From Aureispira sp. CCB-QB1 (GTDB taxonomy: Bacteria; Bacteroidota; Bacteroidia; Chitinophagales; Saprospiraceae): a stretch of DNA of 64,000 nucleotides. Location of the stretch: positions 62,001 to 126,000 of the forward strand of contig NZ_JHBV01000030.1 of assembly GCF_000724545.1 (NCBI RefSeq). Direction: 5' to 3'. The notes under the pieces were generated by a model. That model had not been told where the DNA came from. It was given only the letters and a program-made list of their open reading frames with translations, and ran no database searches. The stretch's first letter is position 1. Each line of letters starts with the position of its first letter. Positions 4,042 to 53,800 of the stretch are shown here, piece by piece. The translations under genes were made by a program, and so were the position numbers.

Positions 4042-4467
4042 ATGAATTGGGGATATAGAATTGCTGTTTTTTTTGTTGCTTTTATAACGTTCATGTTATT
4101 CATGCTTTACAAATGCGTGCAACAAAATTTTGATTTGGTAGCTGAAGATTATTATGCACAAGAAGTGACATTCCAAAATCGAATTGATCAACAAAATAAT
4201 GTGTTGACACTAGACACAAAGCCTAGTTGGCAGATTGAAGAGGATTATTTTAAGCTCTCTTTTCCGAATTCATTTAGCAAAGGAGAAATTCATTTTTTTC
4301 GACCTTCTGACAAGAATCTAGACTTTGGCGAAACCTTGCAAATCGATGCCAACCAACAACAACAAATAGCACTCAACAAATTCAAAAAGGGTATTTATAA
4401 AGTGCAATTAAGTTGGTCGGATCAAGAGAAGGATTACTACATTGAACAACAGATTTTCATTCCTTAA
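4042..4467 (+). CDS. ccoH: FixH/CcoH family cbb3 assembly protein
   Basis: A 141-residue protein with one N-terminal membrane helix (about residues 5-24, YRIAVFFVAFITFMLFMLY) and a soluble extracytoplasmic domain. The stretch LVAEDYYAQEVTFQNRIDQ is the FixH hallmark (DLVxxDYYxxE). FixH/CcoH proteins help assemble or stabilise the cbb3 oxidase. Position after ccoG supports the call. The copper transporter ccoI and ccoS are not seen downstream and may lie left of the window. Confidence 0.88.
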   Translation: MNWGYRIAVFFVAFITFMLFMLYKCVQQNFDLVAEDYYAQEVTFQNRIDQQNNVLTLDTKPSWQIEEDYFKLSFPNSFSKGEIHFFRPSDKNLDFGETLQIDANQQQQIALNKFKKGIYKVQLSWSDQEKDYYIEQQIFIP

Positions 4468-4477
4468 ACCAATCAAT

Positions 4478-5191
4478 ATGATAGCGTTATTAACAGCATT
4501 TTCAGTCGGGTTGCTAGGTAGCTTTCATTGTATTGGTATGTGTGGTGCCATAGCCTTTTCTTTACCGTTGCAAGAGCAAAACTGGTATAGCAAACTTTGG
4601 GGTGGTTTCATCTATAACTTGGGTAGAATCAGCACTTATGGTCTACTAGGATTTGTACTAGGGCTTTTAGGAAAAGGATTTTCTTTTGCAGGATTTCAAC
4701 AAGGATTGTCGATTTTTTTAGGTGTTTTTATCTTGCTGGTGCTCCTATTCCCCAAATATGTTCAATTACAAAAAAACAAGAGCAGCCTACTAGCAGAACT
4801 TCAGTTGTGGGTGCGTCAAAAAATGGGCTTGTTGTTTCAAAATAATTCGACCAAAGCTTTGTATGGTATTGGCTTGCTGAATGGCTTGCTTCCTTGTGGT
4901 TTGGTTTATGCAGGTTTGGCGGGTGCTATTGCTACAGGACAAGGTTGGTTGGGCGCACTTTATATGATTTGTTTTGGTTTAGGCACCTTACCTATCATGA
5001 TCTTAGCCAGTCAATTTCGAGGGTTTATTTCTATTTCGGTACGGAACAGAATGCGCCAAATAGTTCCTTTTTTTGTAGGGTTTATGGCGGTCTTATTTAT
5101 CATTCGGGGGCTCAACTTGGGCATTCCTTATCTTAGTCCAGTATTGCAAAGTAAGGTGACCTCTTGGATTATGCCTGCCAATTGTCATTAA
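4478..5191 (+). CDS. SafE/TauE-like (COG2836-type) membrane protein of the cco locus
   Basis: A polytopic membrane protein of 237 residues from ATG 4478. It opens with two helices around FHCIGMCGAIAFSLP; the CxGMCG motif is typical of the SafE/UreH-like membrane proteins that follow ccoH in cco clusters and are proposed to act in metal handling for oxidase assembly. A second repeat unit, NGLLPCGLVYAGLAGA, suggests the usual duplicated topology. The open frame reaches back to a TTG at 4442 inside ccoH; ATG 4478, 10 bp after the ccoH stop, is preferred. The substrate is not known. Confidence 0.85.
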   Translation: MIALLTAFSVGLLGSFHCIGMCGAIAFSLPLQEQNWYSKLWGGFIYNLGRISTYGLLGFVLGLLGKGFSFAGFQQGLSIFLGVFILLVLLFPKYVQLQKNKSSLLAELQLWVRQKMGLLFQNNSTKALYGIGLLNGLLPCGLVYAGLAGAIATGQGWLGALYMICFGLGTLPIMILASQFRGFISISVRNRMRQIVPFFVGFMAVLFIIRGLNLGIPYLSPVLQSKVTSWIMPANCH

Positions 5192-48955: not shown

Positions 48956-49197
48956 ATTTTCGTAAGTTTGGTAAATACTCATCGAAAGTTGGTTATGTTT
49001 GTTCGTTACTGTTATAAACGCAATTGATATGCCAAATAGTTTAAAACGATACGTTAAGAATTACTTAAAAAATAAATTGATTCGATTCATTTAATAGTTC
49101 AAACAAACTTTCTCGCTCATTTTCCTCTCGAATTATCAGGCAAAAAACTCCCAAATTCTTCAACAAAACGGTTCAACAAGACTTAATCCTTATTTTT

Positions 49198-49225
49198 GTT
49201 TAACTTTTTAACTAAAAAATTAAAC
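49198..49225. promoter_or_regulatory. Dyad-symmetric candidate operator upstream of sigma gene 1
   Basis: GTTTAACTTTTT-aact-AAAAAATTAAAC, a 12-bp inverted repeat with one mismatch. The GTTTAAC word recurs in the promoter at 49332-49338 and elsewhere in the array spacers. Confidence 0.4.
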
Positions 49226-49322
49226 ACAACATAACTAAATAAAAACCAACACTTTAAAGCAAAAATAATTGTACCTACATTTAATTTTGTTTAAGTTTTT
49301 TGCAAATTACTTTACACAAAAC

Positions 49323-49353
49323 TTGTTTTCTGTTTAACTTTGAGTTATATTTG
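49323..49353 (+). promoter_or_regulatory. Promoter of sigma gene 1
   Basis: -33 element TTG (49323-49325), 20-nt spacer containing TTTAACTTT, -7 element TATATTTG (49346-49353). 49 bp to the ATG. The left flank ACACAAAA and the right flank TTTTCTGT make a near-perfect dyad over the -33 box. Confidence 0.8.
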
Positions 49354-49402
49354 TTTCAACAAACAAAGGGTGATATTACTCAGAACAAAAAAATAATACA
49401 TT

Positions 49403-49930
49403 ATGTCAGCGATCAATTTCACACAAGAAATCTCTAATCTAGAAGGTGTATTAAATAATTTTGCATTTAAACTTACCAGAAATAGAGAAGACTCAAAAGA
49501 TCTTTATCAAGAAACGGCATATAGAGCTTTAGTTAATCAAGATAAATTTCGAGTAGGAACTAATCTTAAAGCATGGTTATTTACAATGATGCGTAATATC
49601 TTTATCAATAACTATCGAAAAAAGATCAAAAGAAATACTATCCTTGATTCTACTGACAATCAATTTTTCTTGAACTCTGGTGGACCAGCCATCTTAAATG
49701 GTGCTCATTCTTCTATGATGATGGATGAATTAGAAGAGTTGGTCGATGAGCTACATGATAGTACTCGCATTCCTTTTATGATGCATTATTATGGTTACAA
49801 ATATCAAGAGATTGCTGAACAATTAGATCTACCTTTGGGTACAATAAAAAGTCGCATTTTCTTTGCTCGCAAGGAACTAAAAGGGGCTGTCTTATCTAAC
49901 TACAAAAACGTTTTGAGCAGAACGGCTTAA
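49403..49930 (+). CDS. ECF-type RNA polymerase sigma factor, array copy 1
   Basis: 175 residues. Region 2 (LTRNREDSKDLYQETAYRAL and the GTNLKAWLFTMMRNIFINNY helix) is the ECF core-binding and -10 recognition domain. A conserved linker TILDSTDNQFFLNSGGP follows. Region 4 (GYKYQEIAEQLDLPLGTIKS helix-turn-helix) reads the -35. No anti-sigma gene and no C-terminal sensor domain is present. It has its own promoter and terminator. ATG 49403 follows a 49-bp leader, similar to the other copies, which supports the start. Target genes unknown. Confidence 0.92.
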   Translation: MSAINFTQEISNLEGVLNNFAFKLTRNREDSKDLYQETAYRALVNQDKFRVGTNLKAWLFTMMRNIFINNYRKKIKRNTILDSTDNQFFLNSGGPAILNGAHSSMMMDELEELVDELHDSTRIPFMMHYYGYKYQEIAEQLDLPLGTIKSRIFFARKELKGAVLSNYKNVLSRTA

Positions 49931-50020
49931 TTGAGAATAAAAACACTTTAATACAAGTATTAGTTTGCTTAAACTACGTCGTAACAAGCGAAAATCAAGC
50001 GAATAACCGATAAATATAAT

Positions 50021-50056
50021 AGCGTTTTCAACAAATGTTGAAAGCGCTTTTTTTAT
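50021..50056 (+). terminator. Terminator of sigma gene 1
   Basis: AGCGTTTTCAAC and GTTGAAAGCGCT (one G-U pair) around a 4-nt loop, then a run of T. It is 91 bp after the stop. Confidence 0.85.
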
Positions 50057-50399
50057 AAAAAAAACTATTTATGGGAACCTTATTTTTAATCTTTTGTTCT
50101 TCTTATCAAATCCAAATTATATTGGTATACTCAATCCAAATAAACATAAGTACTTAATAGTAGTAGTTAGTTATCTTGTTAACCATTACCATTTTAAAAA
50201 ATTATAAAAACACTGTCGAAAAACTAGTATCTAGTTTGGGTTTCTATACTCCTTGATTCAAAGTAATTCCTGCTTGTTGTTTATTGTGAATCAAGCTGTT
50301 TTAGTTCAATCTATTGAATCTTAAATGGCGCTCTATCTTCACAGAACACCTTTGCCTATATGCATTAGAAATATGTTTAAATATTAGCTTCTGCAAAAT

Positions 50400-50430
50400 T
50401 TGTTTTTTGTTTAACTTTAAAGTATCTTTA
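50400..50430 (+). promoter_or_regulatory. Promoter of sigma gene 2
   Basis: -33 TTG (50400-50402), 20-nt spacer with TTTGTTTAAC, -7 TATCTTTA (50423-50430); 46 bp to the ATG. The -33 dyad is weaker here than in units 1, 4 and 5. Confidence 0.75.
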
Positions 50431-50476
50431 TTTAAACACAAAAATTAATCCGCCAATTAAAGCAAAACTTACAATT

Positions 50477-51010
50477 ATGACTACTATCGATTTTAACGAG
50501 GAACTTTCTAAGTTAGAAGAAGCTCTTAGTAAATTCGCATATAAGTTGACCAAAAATAAGGATGATGCCAAAGATTTATATCAAGAAACGGCTTATCGAG
50601 CGTTGACCAATCAAAATAAATTTCGTGTAGGCACAAATCTAAAAGCCTGGTTATTTACGATGATGCGAAATATTTTTATCAATAACTATCGAAAGAAAGT
50701 AAAAAGAAATACAATTCTAGACTCTACCGACGACCGTTTTCACCTCAACTCTAGCGGTCCTGCTATTGTGAATGATGCCGATTCATCTATTATGATGAAA
50801 GAGCTACAAAATTTAATGGACAAATTGGAAGATCATATCCGAGTTCCTTTCTTGATGTATTACTATGGATACAAATACCAAGAAATTGCCGAGCAATTAG
50901 ATGTTCCTTTAGGCACTGTTAAAAGCCGTATCTTTTTTGCGCGTCAAGAATTAAAAGATGCTATCTTAAAGAATTACAAAGAAGTTTTAAATAGAACTAG
51001 AACTGCTTAA
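50477..51010 (+). CDS. ECF-type RNA polymerase sigma factor, array copy 2
   Basis: 177 residues, same domain order as copy 1. It is the most distinct intact copy at the N-terminus (MTTIDFNEELSKLEEALSKF) and in the linker (DSTDDRFHLNSSGPAI), but region 2 (GTNLKAWLFTMMRNIFINNY) is unchanged and region 4 (GYKYQEIAEQLDVPLGTVKS) differs only conservatively. It ends with an extra RT before the common RTA tail. The 546-bp spacer before it is the longest in the array and holds the copy 1 terminator. Confidence 0.92.
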   Translation: MTTIDFNEELSKLEEALSKFAYKLTKNKDDAKDLYQETAYRALTNQNKFRVGTNLKAWLFTMMRNIFINNYRKKVKRNTILDSTDDRFHLNSSGPAIVNDADSSIMMKELQNLMDKLEDHIRVPFLMYYYGYKYQEIAEQLDVPLGTVKSRIFFARQELKDAILKNYKEVLNRTRTA

Positions 51011-51050
51011 TCTCCTGCTCCCTAAAAATGTAAATTTGTCTATAATTGGA

Positions 51051-51089
51051 ACAACTGGCTGTCTCATATTGAGGCAGCCAGTTGTGTTT
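51051..51089 (+). terminator. Terminator of sigma gene 2
   Basis: ACAACTGGCTG pairs with CAGCCAGTTGT, extended by CTC/GAG inside, 5-nt loop, then GTTT. It is 40 bp after the stop. Confidence 0.8.
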
Positions 51090-51291
51090 ATAACCTTCCT
51101 CTCCTTCAGCAAAACTATATTAGACTTAAGCTCAAAAGCTCCCCAAAAACGCCTATTTCAAAGCTCTATTTTTGTTTAACTTTTATTTAACCATGCTTAA
51201 AACTTCATCATAAAAACCTAAAAAACAAACCTTTAAAACATAAATAGATGTATAGACATTAATTGTTGATAAATCTATTTTTGCTAAAAAC

Positions 51292-51322
51292 TTGCTTTTC
51301 GTGAAATGGTACATTACCTTTA
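51292..51322 (+). promoter_or_regulatory. Promoter of sigma gene 3
   Basis: -33 TTG (51292-51294), 20-nt spacer, -7 TACCTTTA (51315-51322), 47 bp to ATG 51370. The TTG at 51292 also opens the longer reading frame; because it is the -33 element by alignment with the other four units, it cannot be the start codon. The spacer lacks the GTTTAAC word. Confidence 0.72.
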
Positions 51323-51369
51323 TTCCAACAAACGAAACAACCTATTTTTATATAGTCAAAGAATACATT

Positions 51370-51888
51370 ATGTCAACAATAAATTTTAGCAGAGAGATTT
51401 CAAATCTAGATAGCGCCTTAAGCAATTTTGCCTATAAATTGACTCAAAATAAAGAAGATTCCAAAGACTTGTGCCAAGAAACTACTTATAGAGCCTTGGT
51501 TAATCAAAGCAAGTTTCAGGTAGGTACGAACCTAAAAGCATGGTTATTTACGATGATGCGCAATATTTTTATTAATAATTACCGCAAGAAGATAAAACGC
51601 AATACTATTTTAGATTCTACCGATAACCAATTTTATTTGAATTCTGGAGGACCTACCATTCTTAATGATGCAAACTCTTCTATTATGATGAACGAACTAC
51701 AAGAATTGGTCAACAAGTTAGATGACAAAACTAGAGTTCCATTTATGATGCATCATTATGGATACAAATACCAAGAGATTGCGGAGCAATTAGATGTTCC
51801 ATTGGGAACCATCAAAAGTCGCATTCATTTTGCTCGCAAAGAGTTAAGGAATGCTGTCAAAAACAACTATAAAATGTTCCAATTTTAA
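51370..51888 (+). CDS. ECF-type RNA polymerase sigma factor, array copy 3 (divergent)
   Basis: 172 residues from ATG 51370 (MSTINFSREISNLDSALSNF). Domains as in the other copies, but several positions identical in the other four have changed: DLCQETTYRAL instead of DLYQETAYRAL, KFQVGT instead of KFRVGT, MMHHYG instead of a Tyr-Tyr pair, RIHFAR instead of RIFFAR. The C-terminal RTA tail is replaced by KMFQF. It is still a full-length open frame, so it is probably functional or only recently relaxed. The frame open to 51292 is rejected because its first bases are promoter. Confidence 0.9.
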   Translation: MSTINFSREISNLDSALSNFAYKLTQNKEDSKDLCQETTYRALVNQSKFQVGTNLKAWLFTMMRNIFINNYRKKIKRNTILDSTDNQFYLNSGGPTILNDANSSIMMNELQELVNKLDDKTRVPFMMHHYGYKYQEIAEQLDVPLGTIKSRIHFARKELRNAVKNNYKMFQF

Positions 51889-51911
51889 ATAATCATTAGA
51901 ATTAAAAATGC

Positions 51912-51946
51912 AGGCTATTTCAACGATGTTTGGAATAGCCTTTTTT
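51912..51946 (+). terminator. Terminator of sigma gene 3
   Basis: AGGCTATT and AATAGCCT (8-bp stem, 14-nt loop) followed by TTTTTTG. It starts 23 bp after the stop. Confidence 0.8.
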
Positions 51947-52074
51947 GTTTTTTATCCACCTTTTTGTTCTAGTTTTTTCATCTCATTTTTTGTTAAACAA
52001 AAACGTTAAACAAAAAAAATTGCTTCCCCCTAAAAAAAGCCCACACAGCACCTAACAAACTAACAATCAAAACA

Positions 52075-52127
52075 TTTAACATGTTTTAACAAAAGTTACC
52101 GTTTAACATGTTTCACAAAAAAGTTCC
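52075..52127 (+). promoter_or_regulatory. Imperfect direct repeat upstream of sigma gene 4
   Basis: TTTAACATGTTTTAACAAAA (52077 on) is repeated as TTTAACATGTTTCACAAAAA (52102 on), about 25 bp apart, followed by the -33 dyad. A pair of GTTAAACAAAAA words lies further up (about 51992-52017). Candidate binding-site cluster; inferred only from sequence repetition. Confidence 0.45.
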
Positions 52128-52165
52128 ACAAAACTTGATTTTTGTGGAACTTTTCTATAGCTTTG
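52120..52165 (+). promoter_or_regulatory. Promoter of sigma gene 4 with -33 palindrome
   Basis: -33 TTG (52135-52137), 20-nt spacer, -7 TAGCTTTG (52158-52165), 52 bp to the ATG. AAAAGTTCCACAAAA and TTTTGTGGAACTTTT form a perfect 15-bp inverted repeat (about 52120-52155) whose centre contains the -33 TTG, as expected of an operator that blocks polymerase. Confidence 0.82.
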
Positions 52166-52217
52166 TATTAACAACAAACGGAAATCACATTAGTTAACAC
52201 TCAAAAAAATACATGTT

Positions 52218-52745
52218 ATGTCAACAATCAATTTTAGCAGAGAAATTTCGAATCTAGAAGGTGCATTGAGTAATTTTGCATTTAAGTTAACTAAAAATAG
52301 AGAAGATTCTAAGGACCTATATCAAGAGACAGCATATAGGGCATTAGTCAATCAAAAGAAATTTCGAGTAGGAACTAACCTAAAAGCGTGGTTATTTACG
52401 ATGATGCGCAATATCTTTATCAACAACTATCGTAAAAAAATGAAGCGCAATACAATTTTAGATTCTACAGATAATAACTTTTATCTTAATTCTGGAGGAC
52501 CTATCATTGTTAATGATGCTGATTCTTCTATTATGATGCGCGAGCTGCAAGAACTGGTGAACAAATTAGAAGACAACATCCGTGTTCCCTTTATGATGCA
52601 TTACTATGGCTACAAATACCAGGAAATTGCCGAGCAATTGGATTTGCCTTTGGGAACTATCAAAAGTCGTATTTTCTTTGCTCGTCAAGAGCTAAAGAAT
52701 GCTGTTCTTAAAAATTACAAAGGCACGTTAGGAAGAACTGCTTAG
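52218..52745 (+). CDS. ECF-type RNA polymerase sigma factor, array copy 4
   Basis: 175 residues, about 90 percent identical to copy 5 by my count (about 17 differences). Domain order as in copy 1: region 2 (LTKNREDSKDLYQETAYRAL, then GTNLKAWLFTMMRNIFINNY), linker (DSTDNNFYLNSGGP), region 4 (GYKYQEIAEQLDLPLGTIKS), ending GRTA. High similarity of the flanks as well as the gene points to a recent tandem duplication with copy 5. Confidence 0.93.
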   Translation: MSTINFSREISNLEGALSNFAFKLTKNREDSKDLYQETAYRALVNQKKFRVGTNLKAWLFTMMRNIFINNYRKKMKRNTILDSTDNNFYLNSGGPIIVNDADSSIMMRELQELVNKLEDNIRVPFMMHYYGYKYQEIAEQLDLPLGTIKSRIFFARQELKNAVLKNYKGTLGRTA

Positions 52746-52772
52746 TAATTTTAATCAAACAGTTTATATAGG

Positions 52773-52806
52773 AGCAGCTTCAACAAATTGTTGAAGCTGC
52801 TTTTTC
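52773..52806 (+). terminator. Terminator of sigma gene 4
   Basis: GCAGCTTCAACAA and TTGTTGAAGCTGC (perfect 13-bp arms) followed by TTTTT. The same hairpin ends copy 5. Confidence 0.9.
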
Positions 52807-53026
52807 TATTTTAAACCATACCAAACTAGCTCTACACTATAAACACTGCTCCTTTTTTTTGTGTTTTTTGTGGAACACTTCAACATTAAACAAATAAAAA
52901 AAAAACAATTCCATATAAAACAATCAAACAAGCCCAATTAACTAATAATCAACAAACTAAAACCAAAAATAGAGAGTAAAAAAGCATTTATTGTTTACAC
53001 TTAAACACAAAAACATTAAACAAAAT

Positions 53027-53057
53027 TTGCTTTTTGTTTATTTTTACCCTATCTTTG
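53027..53057 (+). promoter_or_regulatory. Promoter of sigma gene 5
   Basis: -33 TTG (53027-53029), 20-nt spacer, -7 TATCTTTG (53050-53057), 49 bp to the ATG. TAAACAAAA before and TTTTGTTTA after the -33 box make a 9-bp dyad in the same place as in unit 4. Confidence 0.8.
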
Positions 53058-53106
53058 TTTAAACAAACGGAGAGTTATTTTACTCAAAAACAAAAAATAC
53101 TATATT

Positions 53107-53634
53107 ATGTCAACGATCAATTTCGCAAAAGAAATCTCTATTTTAGAAAATGCATTAAGCAATTTTGCATTTAAGCTAACTAGAAATAGAGAGGAATCTA
53201 AAGATCTTTATCAAGAGACGGCATATAGGGCTTTGGTTAATAAAGATAAGTTTCGAGTAGGAACCAACCTCAAGGCATGGTTATTTACGATGATGCGCAA
53301 TATCTTTATCAACAACTATCGCAAAAAAATGAAGCGCAATACAATTTTAGATTCCACAGACAATAATTTTTACCTTAATTCTGGAGGACCTACCATTGTC
53401 AATGATGCTGATTCTTCTATTATGATGAACGAGTTACAAGGACTGGTGAACAAATTAGAAGACAACATTCGTGTTCCTTTTATGATGCACTACTATGGTT
53501 ACAAATACCAAGAGATTGCGGAGCAATTAAATTTGCCTTTGGGAACTATCAAAAGTCGTATTTTCTTTGCTCGTAAAGAGTTAAAGAGTGCTGTTCTTAG
53601 AAATTACAAAAGCGTTTTAGGAAGAACCGCTTAG
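53107..53634 (+). CDS. ECF-type RNA polymerase sigma factor, array copy 5
   Basis: 175 residues, closest to copy 4; regions 2 and 4 as described for the array. Differences from copy 4 cluster in the first 50 residues and the C-terminal 20, while the linker and helix-turn-helix are nearly unchanged (one D to N in EQLNLPLGTIKS). A miniature element has inserted in its 3' flank, 10 bp after the stop and before its terminator. No gene for an anti-sigma factor follows; next is a convergent TPR gene. Confidence 0.93.
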   Translation: MSTINFAKEISILENALSNFAFKLTRNREESKDLYQETAYRALVNKDKFRVGTNLKAWLFTMMRNIFINNYRKKMKRNTILDSTDNNFYLNSGGPTIVNDADSSIMMNELQGLVNKLEDNIRVPFMMHYYGYKYQEIAEQLNLPLGTIKSRIFFARKELKSAVLRNYKSVLGRTA

Positions 53635-53644
53635 TAATTTAGAT

Positions 53645-53742
53645 TAGTAGTTCGTTTATTTTTTACTTTTTACCAAAAAAATAAAAATCACATTTTTATT
53701 TTTTTGATAATCAAACTAATAAATCTTTTCAACGAACTATTA
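53645..53742 (+). repeat. Miniature inverted-repeat element, copy E (98-bp deletion form)
   Basis: TAGTAGTTCGTTTA... to ...TCAACGAACTATTA. Flanks TTAGAT (53639-53644) and CTAGAT (53743-53748) are a 6-bp target duplication with one change. It is 48 bp shorter than copy C because the centre between the internal inverted repeats is missing. Removing it and one flank restores the sequence found after sigma gene 4. Confidence 0.88.
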
Positions 53743-53767
53743 CTAGATCAAACAGTTATATATAGGA

Positions 53768-53800
53768 GCAGCTTCAACAATTTGTTGAAGCTGCTTTTTT
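53768..53800 (+). terminator. Terminator of sigma gene 5
   Basis: GCAGCTTCAACAA and TTGTTGAAGCTGC with one central base, followed by TTTTTT. Separated from the gene by the miniature element. Confidence 0.9.

Follow-up and report, generated by a model that had tools for sequence, protein, structure and literature searches.

The LitR-LitS system of Streptomyces coelicolor reportedly comprises a light-induced extracytoplasmic function (ECF) sigma factor for the carotenoid (crt) genes. In the CarQ-CarR-CarS system of Myxococcus xanthus, an ECF sigma factor acts in light-induced carotenogenesis, and the regulator CarA is B12-independent (PMC8156234). In Bacteroidota, the crt cluster of Echinicola marina includes rpoE and merR (PMC8683446), and that of Nonlabens spongiae includes merR, no sigma factor being mentioned in the text of the paper (PMC11855829). 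The combination of a MerR light regulator, an ECF sigma factor and carotenoid genes is a known kind of circuit. Here, we describe a 64-kb stretch of the genome of Aureispira sp. CCB-QB1 (contig NZ_JHBV01000030.1, positions 62,001 to 126,000; the window) that carries an array of five intact, consecutive ECF sigma genes, u1 to u5, on the plus strand. Our analysis makes it fairly probable that this array forms an amplified sigma tier in a carotenoid and photo-oxidative stress circuit under a MerR repressor related to CarA, CarH and LitR. New in this case are the amplified sigma tier, an operator layout of its own and a regulator without the B12 ligands of CarH. A search of titles and beginnings of abstracts for light, carotenoids and MerR, tandem ECF factors, Aureispira and promoter consensus revealed no published account of the array or the operator among the matches listed.

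All five proteins contain the Pfam domains Sigma70_r2 (PF04542) and Sigma70_r4_2 (PF08281), and each of them carries GTNLKAWLFTMMRNIFINNY. With regions 2 and 4 alone in a short protein of 172-177 amino acids, every copy has the make-up of an ECF (group 4) sigma factor, and the sigma70-ECF superfamily was the sole NCBIfam model above the cut-off among the best 25 rows per copy. The copies are 74-83% identical to u1. The mean pairwise identity between them reaches 0.92 in regions 2.2-2.4 and 0.91 in region 4.2, as compared to 0.69 in the N-terminal part and 0.58 in the tail. An earlier reading of the window from its letters alone (the sequence-only reading) had proposed five plus-strand sigma-70 family genes of this length with nearly the same region 4, and the open reading frames, the domain hits, GTNLKAWLFTMMRNIFINNY and the identity of region 4.2 bear this out.

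Upstream of each copy, a promoter of the form TTG-N20-TAnnTTT[GA] can be read. The sequence-only reading had described it as TTG-N20-TAnnTTTG; this is correct for u1, u4 and u5, whereas the final base is A in u2 and u3. Its view that the promoters are of the housekeeping type agrees with the published elements of the phylum, TAnnTTTG at -7 and TTTG near -33 (PMC7366714); a scan for E. coli-type promoters was uninformative (24 found as compared to 21.1 in shuffled sequences). A composite operator is superimposed on the array promoters, with TTTTGTTNAAC in the spacer and TTNAACAAA after the -7 element; it is degenerate in u3. The half-sites, as read from the sequence, alternate in orientation and are about 21 and 25 bp apart. 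Moreover, the composite operator is common to the sigma orthologues across the Saprospiraceae. With a position weight matrix (PWM) derived from other genera, the five array promoters obtain the best plus-strand scores in the window, and the best score among 46 other window upstream regions is -0.7. The matrix omits the loci of the window genus (L013 and L016) and comprises 39 segments, from 83 upstream regions, that fit GTTNAA at a fixed offset; since it was built only from such segments, its scores favour the GTTNAA form. Finally, TTTGTTTAAC occurs five times in the window, always inside the array. The coordinates are given in the table.

Features of the sigma gene array in the window
Feature	Position	Strand	Remarks
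ECF sigma copy u1	49403..49930	+	175 aa; joined in the protein tree by the single copies of G001/G006
ECF sigma copy u2	50477..51010	+	177 aa
ECF sigma copy u3	51370..51888	+	172 aa counted from the ATG at 51370, taken as start; the listed ORF begins at 51292 (TTG)
ECF sigma copy u4	52218..52745	+	175 aa
ECF sigma copy u5	53107..53634	+	175 aa
u1 predicted promoter-operator	49311..49363	+	PWM 40.3; upstream half-site, -33 TTG 49323-49325
u1 spacer half-site	49328-49338	+	1 mismatch
u1 -7 element TATATTTG	49346-49353	+	followed by start half-site TTTCAACAAA 49354-49363
u2 predicted promoter-operator	50400..50440	+	PWM 29.7; TTG, TTTTGTTTAAC 50405-50415, TATCTTTA 50423-50430, TTTAAACACA
u3 predicted promoter, degenerate operator	51292..51332	+	PWM 12.7
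u4 predicted promoter-operator	52123..52179	+	PWM 26.8; -7 TAGCTTTG 52158-52165
u4 inverted repeat GTTCCACAAAA / TTTTGTGGAAC	52123-52133, 52140-52150	+	perfect repeat
u5 predicted promoter-operator	53015..53067	+	PWM 35.5; ATTAAACAAAA, TTG 53027-53029, TTTTGTTTATT, -7 TATCTTTG 53050-53057, TTTAAACAAA
Additional exact half-site TTTTGTTTAAC 5' of u1	49194..49204	+	
Extra half-sites upstream of u3	51170..51191	+	one exact, one with 1 mismatch
Additional cluster of half-sites 5' of u4 (TTTTGTTAAACAAAAACGTTAAACAAAA)	51988..52015		
Additional variant half-site TTTTGTGGAAC 5' of u5	52866..52876	+	
Terminator-like hairpin 3' of u1	50021..50048	+	terminator scan
Stem 3' of u2, no clear T-run	about 51051..51085	+	read by eye; absent from terminator scan
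Terminator-like hairpin 3' of u3	51912..51941	+	terminator scan
Terminator-like hairpin 3' of u4	52770..52804	+	terminator scan
Terminator-like hairpin 3' of u5	53764..53798	+	terminator scan

Among 85 upstream regions of sigma genes, 70 have at least one exact half-site, 50 have two or more and 40 contain a pair; the respective numbers for 587 other upstream regions from the same loci are 21, 2 and 0, and for the 236 AT-rich ones among these controls 13, 0 and 0. A chance AT-rich motif was rejected on the basis of these controls, of shuffled sequences and of the 46 window upstream regions. The TAnnTTTG element was found in 74 of the 85 sigma upstream regions, and in 73 distinct promoters anchored on it TTG, TTTTGTTNAAC, the -7 element and CAACAA follow each other in this order; the anchoring misplaces the -7 element of u1, u3 and G005, and the positions of u1 and u3 were taken from the PWM analysis. 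In the window genome (G000; 7.37 Mb, 184 contigs), exact TTTGTTTAACTTT is present eight times: three times in the array, once upstream of the crt operon (contig C42), three times in one intergenic region of contig C7 and once within a gene on C2. The motif with one mismatch is not enriched genome-wide (48/44 as compared to 45/48 for the reversed control), and the operator signal resides in sites that are exact or paired. For the wide pair TTTTGTTNAAC-N6-34-TTNAACAAA, this genome has two places, one being the array and the other the crt operon, as compared to one for the reversed control; the inward pair TTNAACAAAA-N2-20-TTTTGTTNAA is found at one place outside both (control: one). In 120 genomes of the family, there are 118 sites with the strict pair (N14-17) and 13 for its reversed control.

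The inverted repeat in front of u4 was also considered as an RNA or cruciform element, and this was set aside because the pairs GTTAAAC/GTTTAAC, GTTCAAC/GTTGAAC and GTTCCAC/GTGGAAC differ at the two free positions of TnnACA, the published CarH core. This argument was noticed afterwards and has modest weight; family-wide, the first free position is mostly T. The half-site variant TTTTGTGGAAC has three occurrences in the window, all of them at u4-u5.

The sequence-only reading gave the impression that no regulator goes with the array. This found no support: the family-wide operator co-occurs with a MerR protein of the CarH family that is encoded in G000 as well, and sigma goes together with carotenoid and photo-oxidative stress genes. 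This protein (C27:3381-4259, locus L139), the single one with MerR and B12 domains in the genome, is not linked to the array. It has a MerR helix-turn-helix followed by a B12-binding-type domain (PF13411 and PF02607), i. e. the architecture of the LitR/CarH family, and it matches the CarH structure 5C8D with an E value of 1.6e-14. The strict pair is present in 69 of the 110 MerR-bearing genomes of the family and in none of the ten MerR-less ones (p 1.1e-4); if only the 114 sigma-bearing genomes are considered, it is also absent from all seven without MerR (p 0.0013). Moreover, not even one half-site was detected in eight sigma upstream regions from six MerR-less genomes; three of these regions are from G034, and the sigma matches of G034, G104 and G081 are weaker. 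A tblastn search of the loci of relatives with MerR and crt proteins (the latter named by eye) identified MerR near sigma in L077, L081, L083, L084, L086, L091 and L101, with a gap of 0.12-0.39 kb in six loci and of 2.2 kb in L084. CrtI and crtB are also close by in L077, L081 and L084, and MerR alone in L083, L086, L091 and L101. Four of the seven linked loci are from Chitinophagales, and L101 is from the family of the window. The linkage of ECF sigma, MerR and crt genes that characterizes LitR-LitS is seen in these relatives (with MerR only in four of them), but not in the window genome.

Which genes might respond to the regulator? Half-sites are present upstream of the crt operon in G000, in G146, which is another, nearly complete assembly from this species (two contigs), and in G001 and G006. 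At the crt operon promoter of G000 (L123 3517-3561, C42), the half-sites face outward and are about 32 bp apart. The neighbours were tallied for 70 distinct sites, taken from about 75 of the 118 strict-pair sites. Of these 70, three belong to the window species and one to a congener. The tally is as follows: 32 precede a sigma orthologue, 11 a fasciclin gene, three crtI, two a rhodopsin gene, two a peroxiredoxin gene (one of them also beside sigma), one folE and two a DUF4397 gene; the remaining 18 have no such gene behind them, and some of the 18 lie within a coding sequence. The tally covers the neighbours of operator-pair sites only, and its fasciclin, rhodopsin, folE, peroxiredoxin and DUF4397 queries were drawn from the neighbours themselves; of the 66 neighbour references, 38 were submitted to Pfam, and the others were either sigma genes or repeats. 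Fasciclin-domain proteins recur downstream of the operator, e. g. in L153, L182, L197, L199 and L204. In Rhodobacter sphaeroides, the singlet-oxygen regulon of RpoE includes fasciclin and folE2 (PMC7074977). In addition, the C7 region (L122, C7:87000-96000, about 4180-4720) contains the three exact TTTGTTTAACTTT sites and, as judged by eye, a tandem, apparently non-coding unit in two copies about 300 bp apart, each consisting of GTTAAACAAAACTNGAGGTTTG and a hairpin with a T-run. It may encode a pair of small RNAs under the same regulator; an Rfam search of L122 and L139 gave no match.

Several observations weigh against a MerR-controlled sigma tier. In G000, the strict pair occurs at two places that are neither the array nor the crt operon, and the reversed control also at two. 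It is absent from 41 of the 110 MerR-bearing genomes. The MerR-less genomes are few and partly congeneric (the genera g26 and g28 are represented twice each), and the p values of the co-occurrence are weakened because the genomes are related. MerR is linked to sigma in only seven of 109 loci (L013-L121), many of which are short. Upstream of crtI, no half-site was found in G003, G002 and G007 and one in G004, and G005 has no crtI match. In the PWM analysis, the crt and merR upstream regions score -3.6 and -14.6, below zero because their half-sites are spaced otherwise, and the only other hit above 12, which lies antisense within the array at 53048, scores 12.7 like u3. Finally, light as the input is uncertain because the regulator lacks the B12 ligands.

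We propose the following scenario, in which binding, repression, the input of light or singlet oxygen, the sigma targets and the graded output are the parts that we infer. The MerR protein would bind to TTTTGTTNAAC and TTNAACAAA, the half-sites superimposed on the housekeeping-type promoter of every sigma gene. In the window species and the two relatives closest to it, it would also bind to the half-sites upstream of the crt operon. As long as the cell is in the dark or free of stress, it would cover the spacer and the start site and thus repress transcription. A signal would then free MerR, so that the housekeeping polymerase could transcribe the sigma genes. The sigma factors, with their nearly identical DNA-binding regions, would direct further target genes, and together with the de-repressed promoters they would raise photoprotection. 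In this lineage, one ancestral sigma gene has given rise to five. The copies probably provide a graded or differently timed output, because their operators have diverged more than the recognition helices. As already suggested by the sequence-only reading, the copies are likelier to differ in their expression than in what they recognize, given the identities of 0.92 and 0.91 in regions 2.2-2.4 and 4.2 and operator PWM scores that range from 40.3 to 12.7. With the weakest operator of the five, u3 may be nearly constitutive or little controlled.

The survey of related genomes and the phylogeny that the sequence-only reading had called for revealed that the five-copy array is a lineage-specific amplification that is not recent and is under constraint, as judged from the trees, the copy number in congeners and the substitution patterns. 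An assembly artefact was rejected since G146 carries the same five genes. The next sigma relative in G000 is much weaker (E 5e-31 as compared to 5e-108 or better). At E 1e-40 or better, six of seven congeners have one match and G002 has two; in G001, G003 and G006, the single copy is located at the same spot between the same flanking neighbours. In the trees, u1-u5 group with the copies of G001 and G006 apart from that of G003 (support 99/94 for protein and 98/95 for DNA); the DNA tree also unites u2-u5 with a support of 99/100, and u3 is unresolved in the protein tree. Between the copies, pS is 0.38-0.81 and pN 0.05-0.15, and omega is 0.04-0.10 in the six of ten pairs with computable dS. The possibility of a pseudogene array was rejected, all five copies being open and under purifying selection. 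In the family, sigma matches at E 1e-50 or better occur in 114 of 120 genomes: six genomes have none, 59 one, 26 two, 18 three, seven four, three five and one six, dispersed paralogues included. In L034 (3892-6543), from another metagenome-assembled genome of the Saprospiraceae, three orthologous sigma genes form an independent array in tandem. Two-copy tandem sets are found in L052, L062 and L070, neighbouring pairs in G021, G067, G071, G099 and G132, and G016 has four copies wider apart within about 6 kb on one contig; five is the largest adjacent set among the matches listed.

These data bear on a simpler explanation, in which the five copies are nothing but the dosage of one sigma factor, with the same targets, the same timing and no division of labour. 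The nearly invariant recognition regions, the purifying selection and the recurrence of the smaller sets all fit this idea, and we regard it as a serious contender that falls somewhat short of being probable: the high synonymous divergence indicates that the copies have long been kept apart without homogenization, the match to the operator varies widely among them, and their N-termini and tails have diverged.

A second question concerns the signal. In CarH, two histidine residues are of importance for B12 (PMC9304148, PMC8156234). The MerR alignment comprises 37 sequences, i. e. the best 30 of the family matches (110 genomes with a match) and the seven linked ones, 31 being from the family of the window. 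The histidine of Wx9EH is present in ten of the 37 and the lower axial histidine in six; in the family of the window, the numbers are four and zero of 31. Both residues are kept in six linked loci of other lineages (L077, L081, L083, L084, L086 and L091). The regulator of the window genome has glutamine at both positions and thus lacks the features of a class I LitR/CarH protein, the B12 photoreceptor. The regulon might accordingly answer to iron or another stress rather than to light, in line with MliR, a MerR protein of a marine member of the Bacteroidetes that acts in iron homeostasis (PMC9478572). We consider this unlikely, because crtI, rhodopsin, folE and fasciclin as targets point to light or singlet oxygen and because MliR, unlike the C27 protein, has no effector domain; for the latter reason, the idea that MliR is the same protein was rejected. 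B12-free LitR classes with other light inputs do exist (PMC9758184). It is tempting to speculate, although we hold this to be doubtful, that the family has made of CarH, a B12 photoreceptor, a repressor that does without B12 and answers to another input, while keeping the operator and the photo-oxidative regulon, and that here the single sigma gene has become a five-step graded switch with the same specificity, five operator strengths and a stepwise dose response.

ECF -35 elements often hold AAC, and TTTTGTTTAAC might be the -35 element of the array sigma factors in a self-amplifying loop rather than a repressor site. Its distance from the -7 element is indeed fixed (16 nt in 20 of 36 scored sigma promoters). 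Such autoregulation is nevertheless very unlikely: the promoters already possess a good TTG at -33 as well as TAnnTTTG, the sites face either way and are present in multiples, all eight sigma upstream regions from the MerR-less genomes are devoid of the element, and in G102, which has MerR and two of the sites, no sigma match reached the threshold used.

The sequence-only reading had also assigned a hairpin terminator to each unit. A scan for stems followed by T-runs (four found in the stretch scanned as compared to 1.7 expected from shuffled sequences) supports this for u1, u3, u4 and u5, but not for u2, where the stem has no clear T-run. The array is flanked by genes for a large protein that looks secreted as judged by eye, a TPR protein (Pfam) and a 148-amino acid protein without a Pfam match, and the order of the neighbours around sigma is the same in G001, G003 and G006. 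In agreement with the sequence-only reading, no anti-sigma gene was recognized among the neighbours, with no dedicated search for anti-sigma families made locally or genome-wide. Anti-sigma genes can be unlinked, and a conventional ECF set held by such a factor from another place in the genome, to which the operator would add little, is very unlikely in our view, as none was recognized by eye beside sigma in the maps either (first 60-70 residues per open reading frame, no dedicated search) and transcriptional control by the operator would suffice.

Taken as a MerR-controlled sigma tier, the array suggests a testable function for a widespread ECF sigma family of the Bacteroidota, with a named operator and a candidate regulator. 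It is a natural case of sigma paralogues with near-identical recognition regions behind promoters that differ in their operator match. Moreover, the presence in one family of regulators without the B12 ligands of CarH, beside relatives that keep them, raises the question what the ligand-less ones sense.

The closest parallels are the LitR/CarH repressors of Thermus thermophilus, Bacillus megaterium and M. xanthus. The C27 protein shares with them the MerR helix-turn-helix and the B12-binding domain fold, the predicted operator overlaps the housekeeping promoter as judged from its position, the half-site contains the published TnnACA core (PMC9304148), and crt and folE are among the genes behind array-type sites. 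In contrast, the 31 aligned proteins of the window's family lack the lower axial histidine, and LitR/CarH sites are tandem 11-bp direct repeats, whereas those of the array alternate in orientation at the wider spacing described above. As in LitR-LitS, a MerR regulator is linked to an ECF sigma factor and carotenoid genes, here in the relatives; unlike LitR-LitS, the array has five tandem sigma genes that are unlinked to the regulator and to crt. CarQ-CarR-CarS differs from the array, where no adjacent anti-sigma gene was recognized (no dedicated search) and it is the sigma genes that seem to be controlled by a MerR operator. The crt cluster of E. marina is similar in bringing together sigma and merR genes in Bacteroidota; for this cluster and that of N. 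spongiae, the passages concerned report gene content alone and describe no operator, regulon or amplification. Finally, RpoE-ChrR of Rhodobacter resembles the array in that an ECF sigma factor has fasciclin and folE2 among its targets (PMC7074977), but there it is the anti-sigma factor ChrR that controls RpoE rather than a MerR operator.

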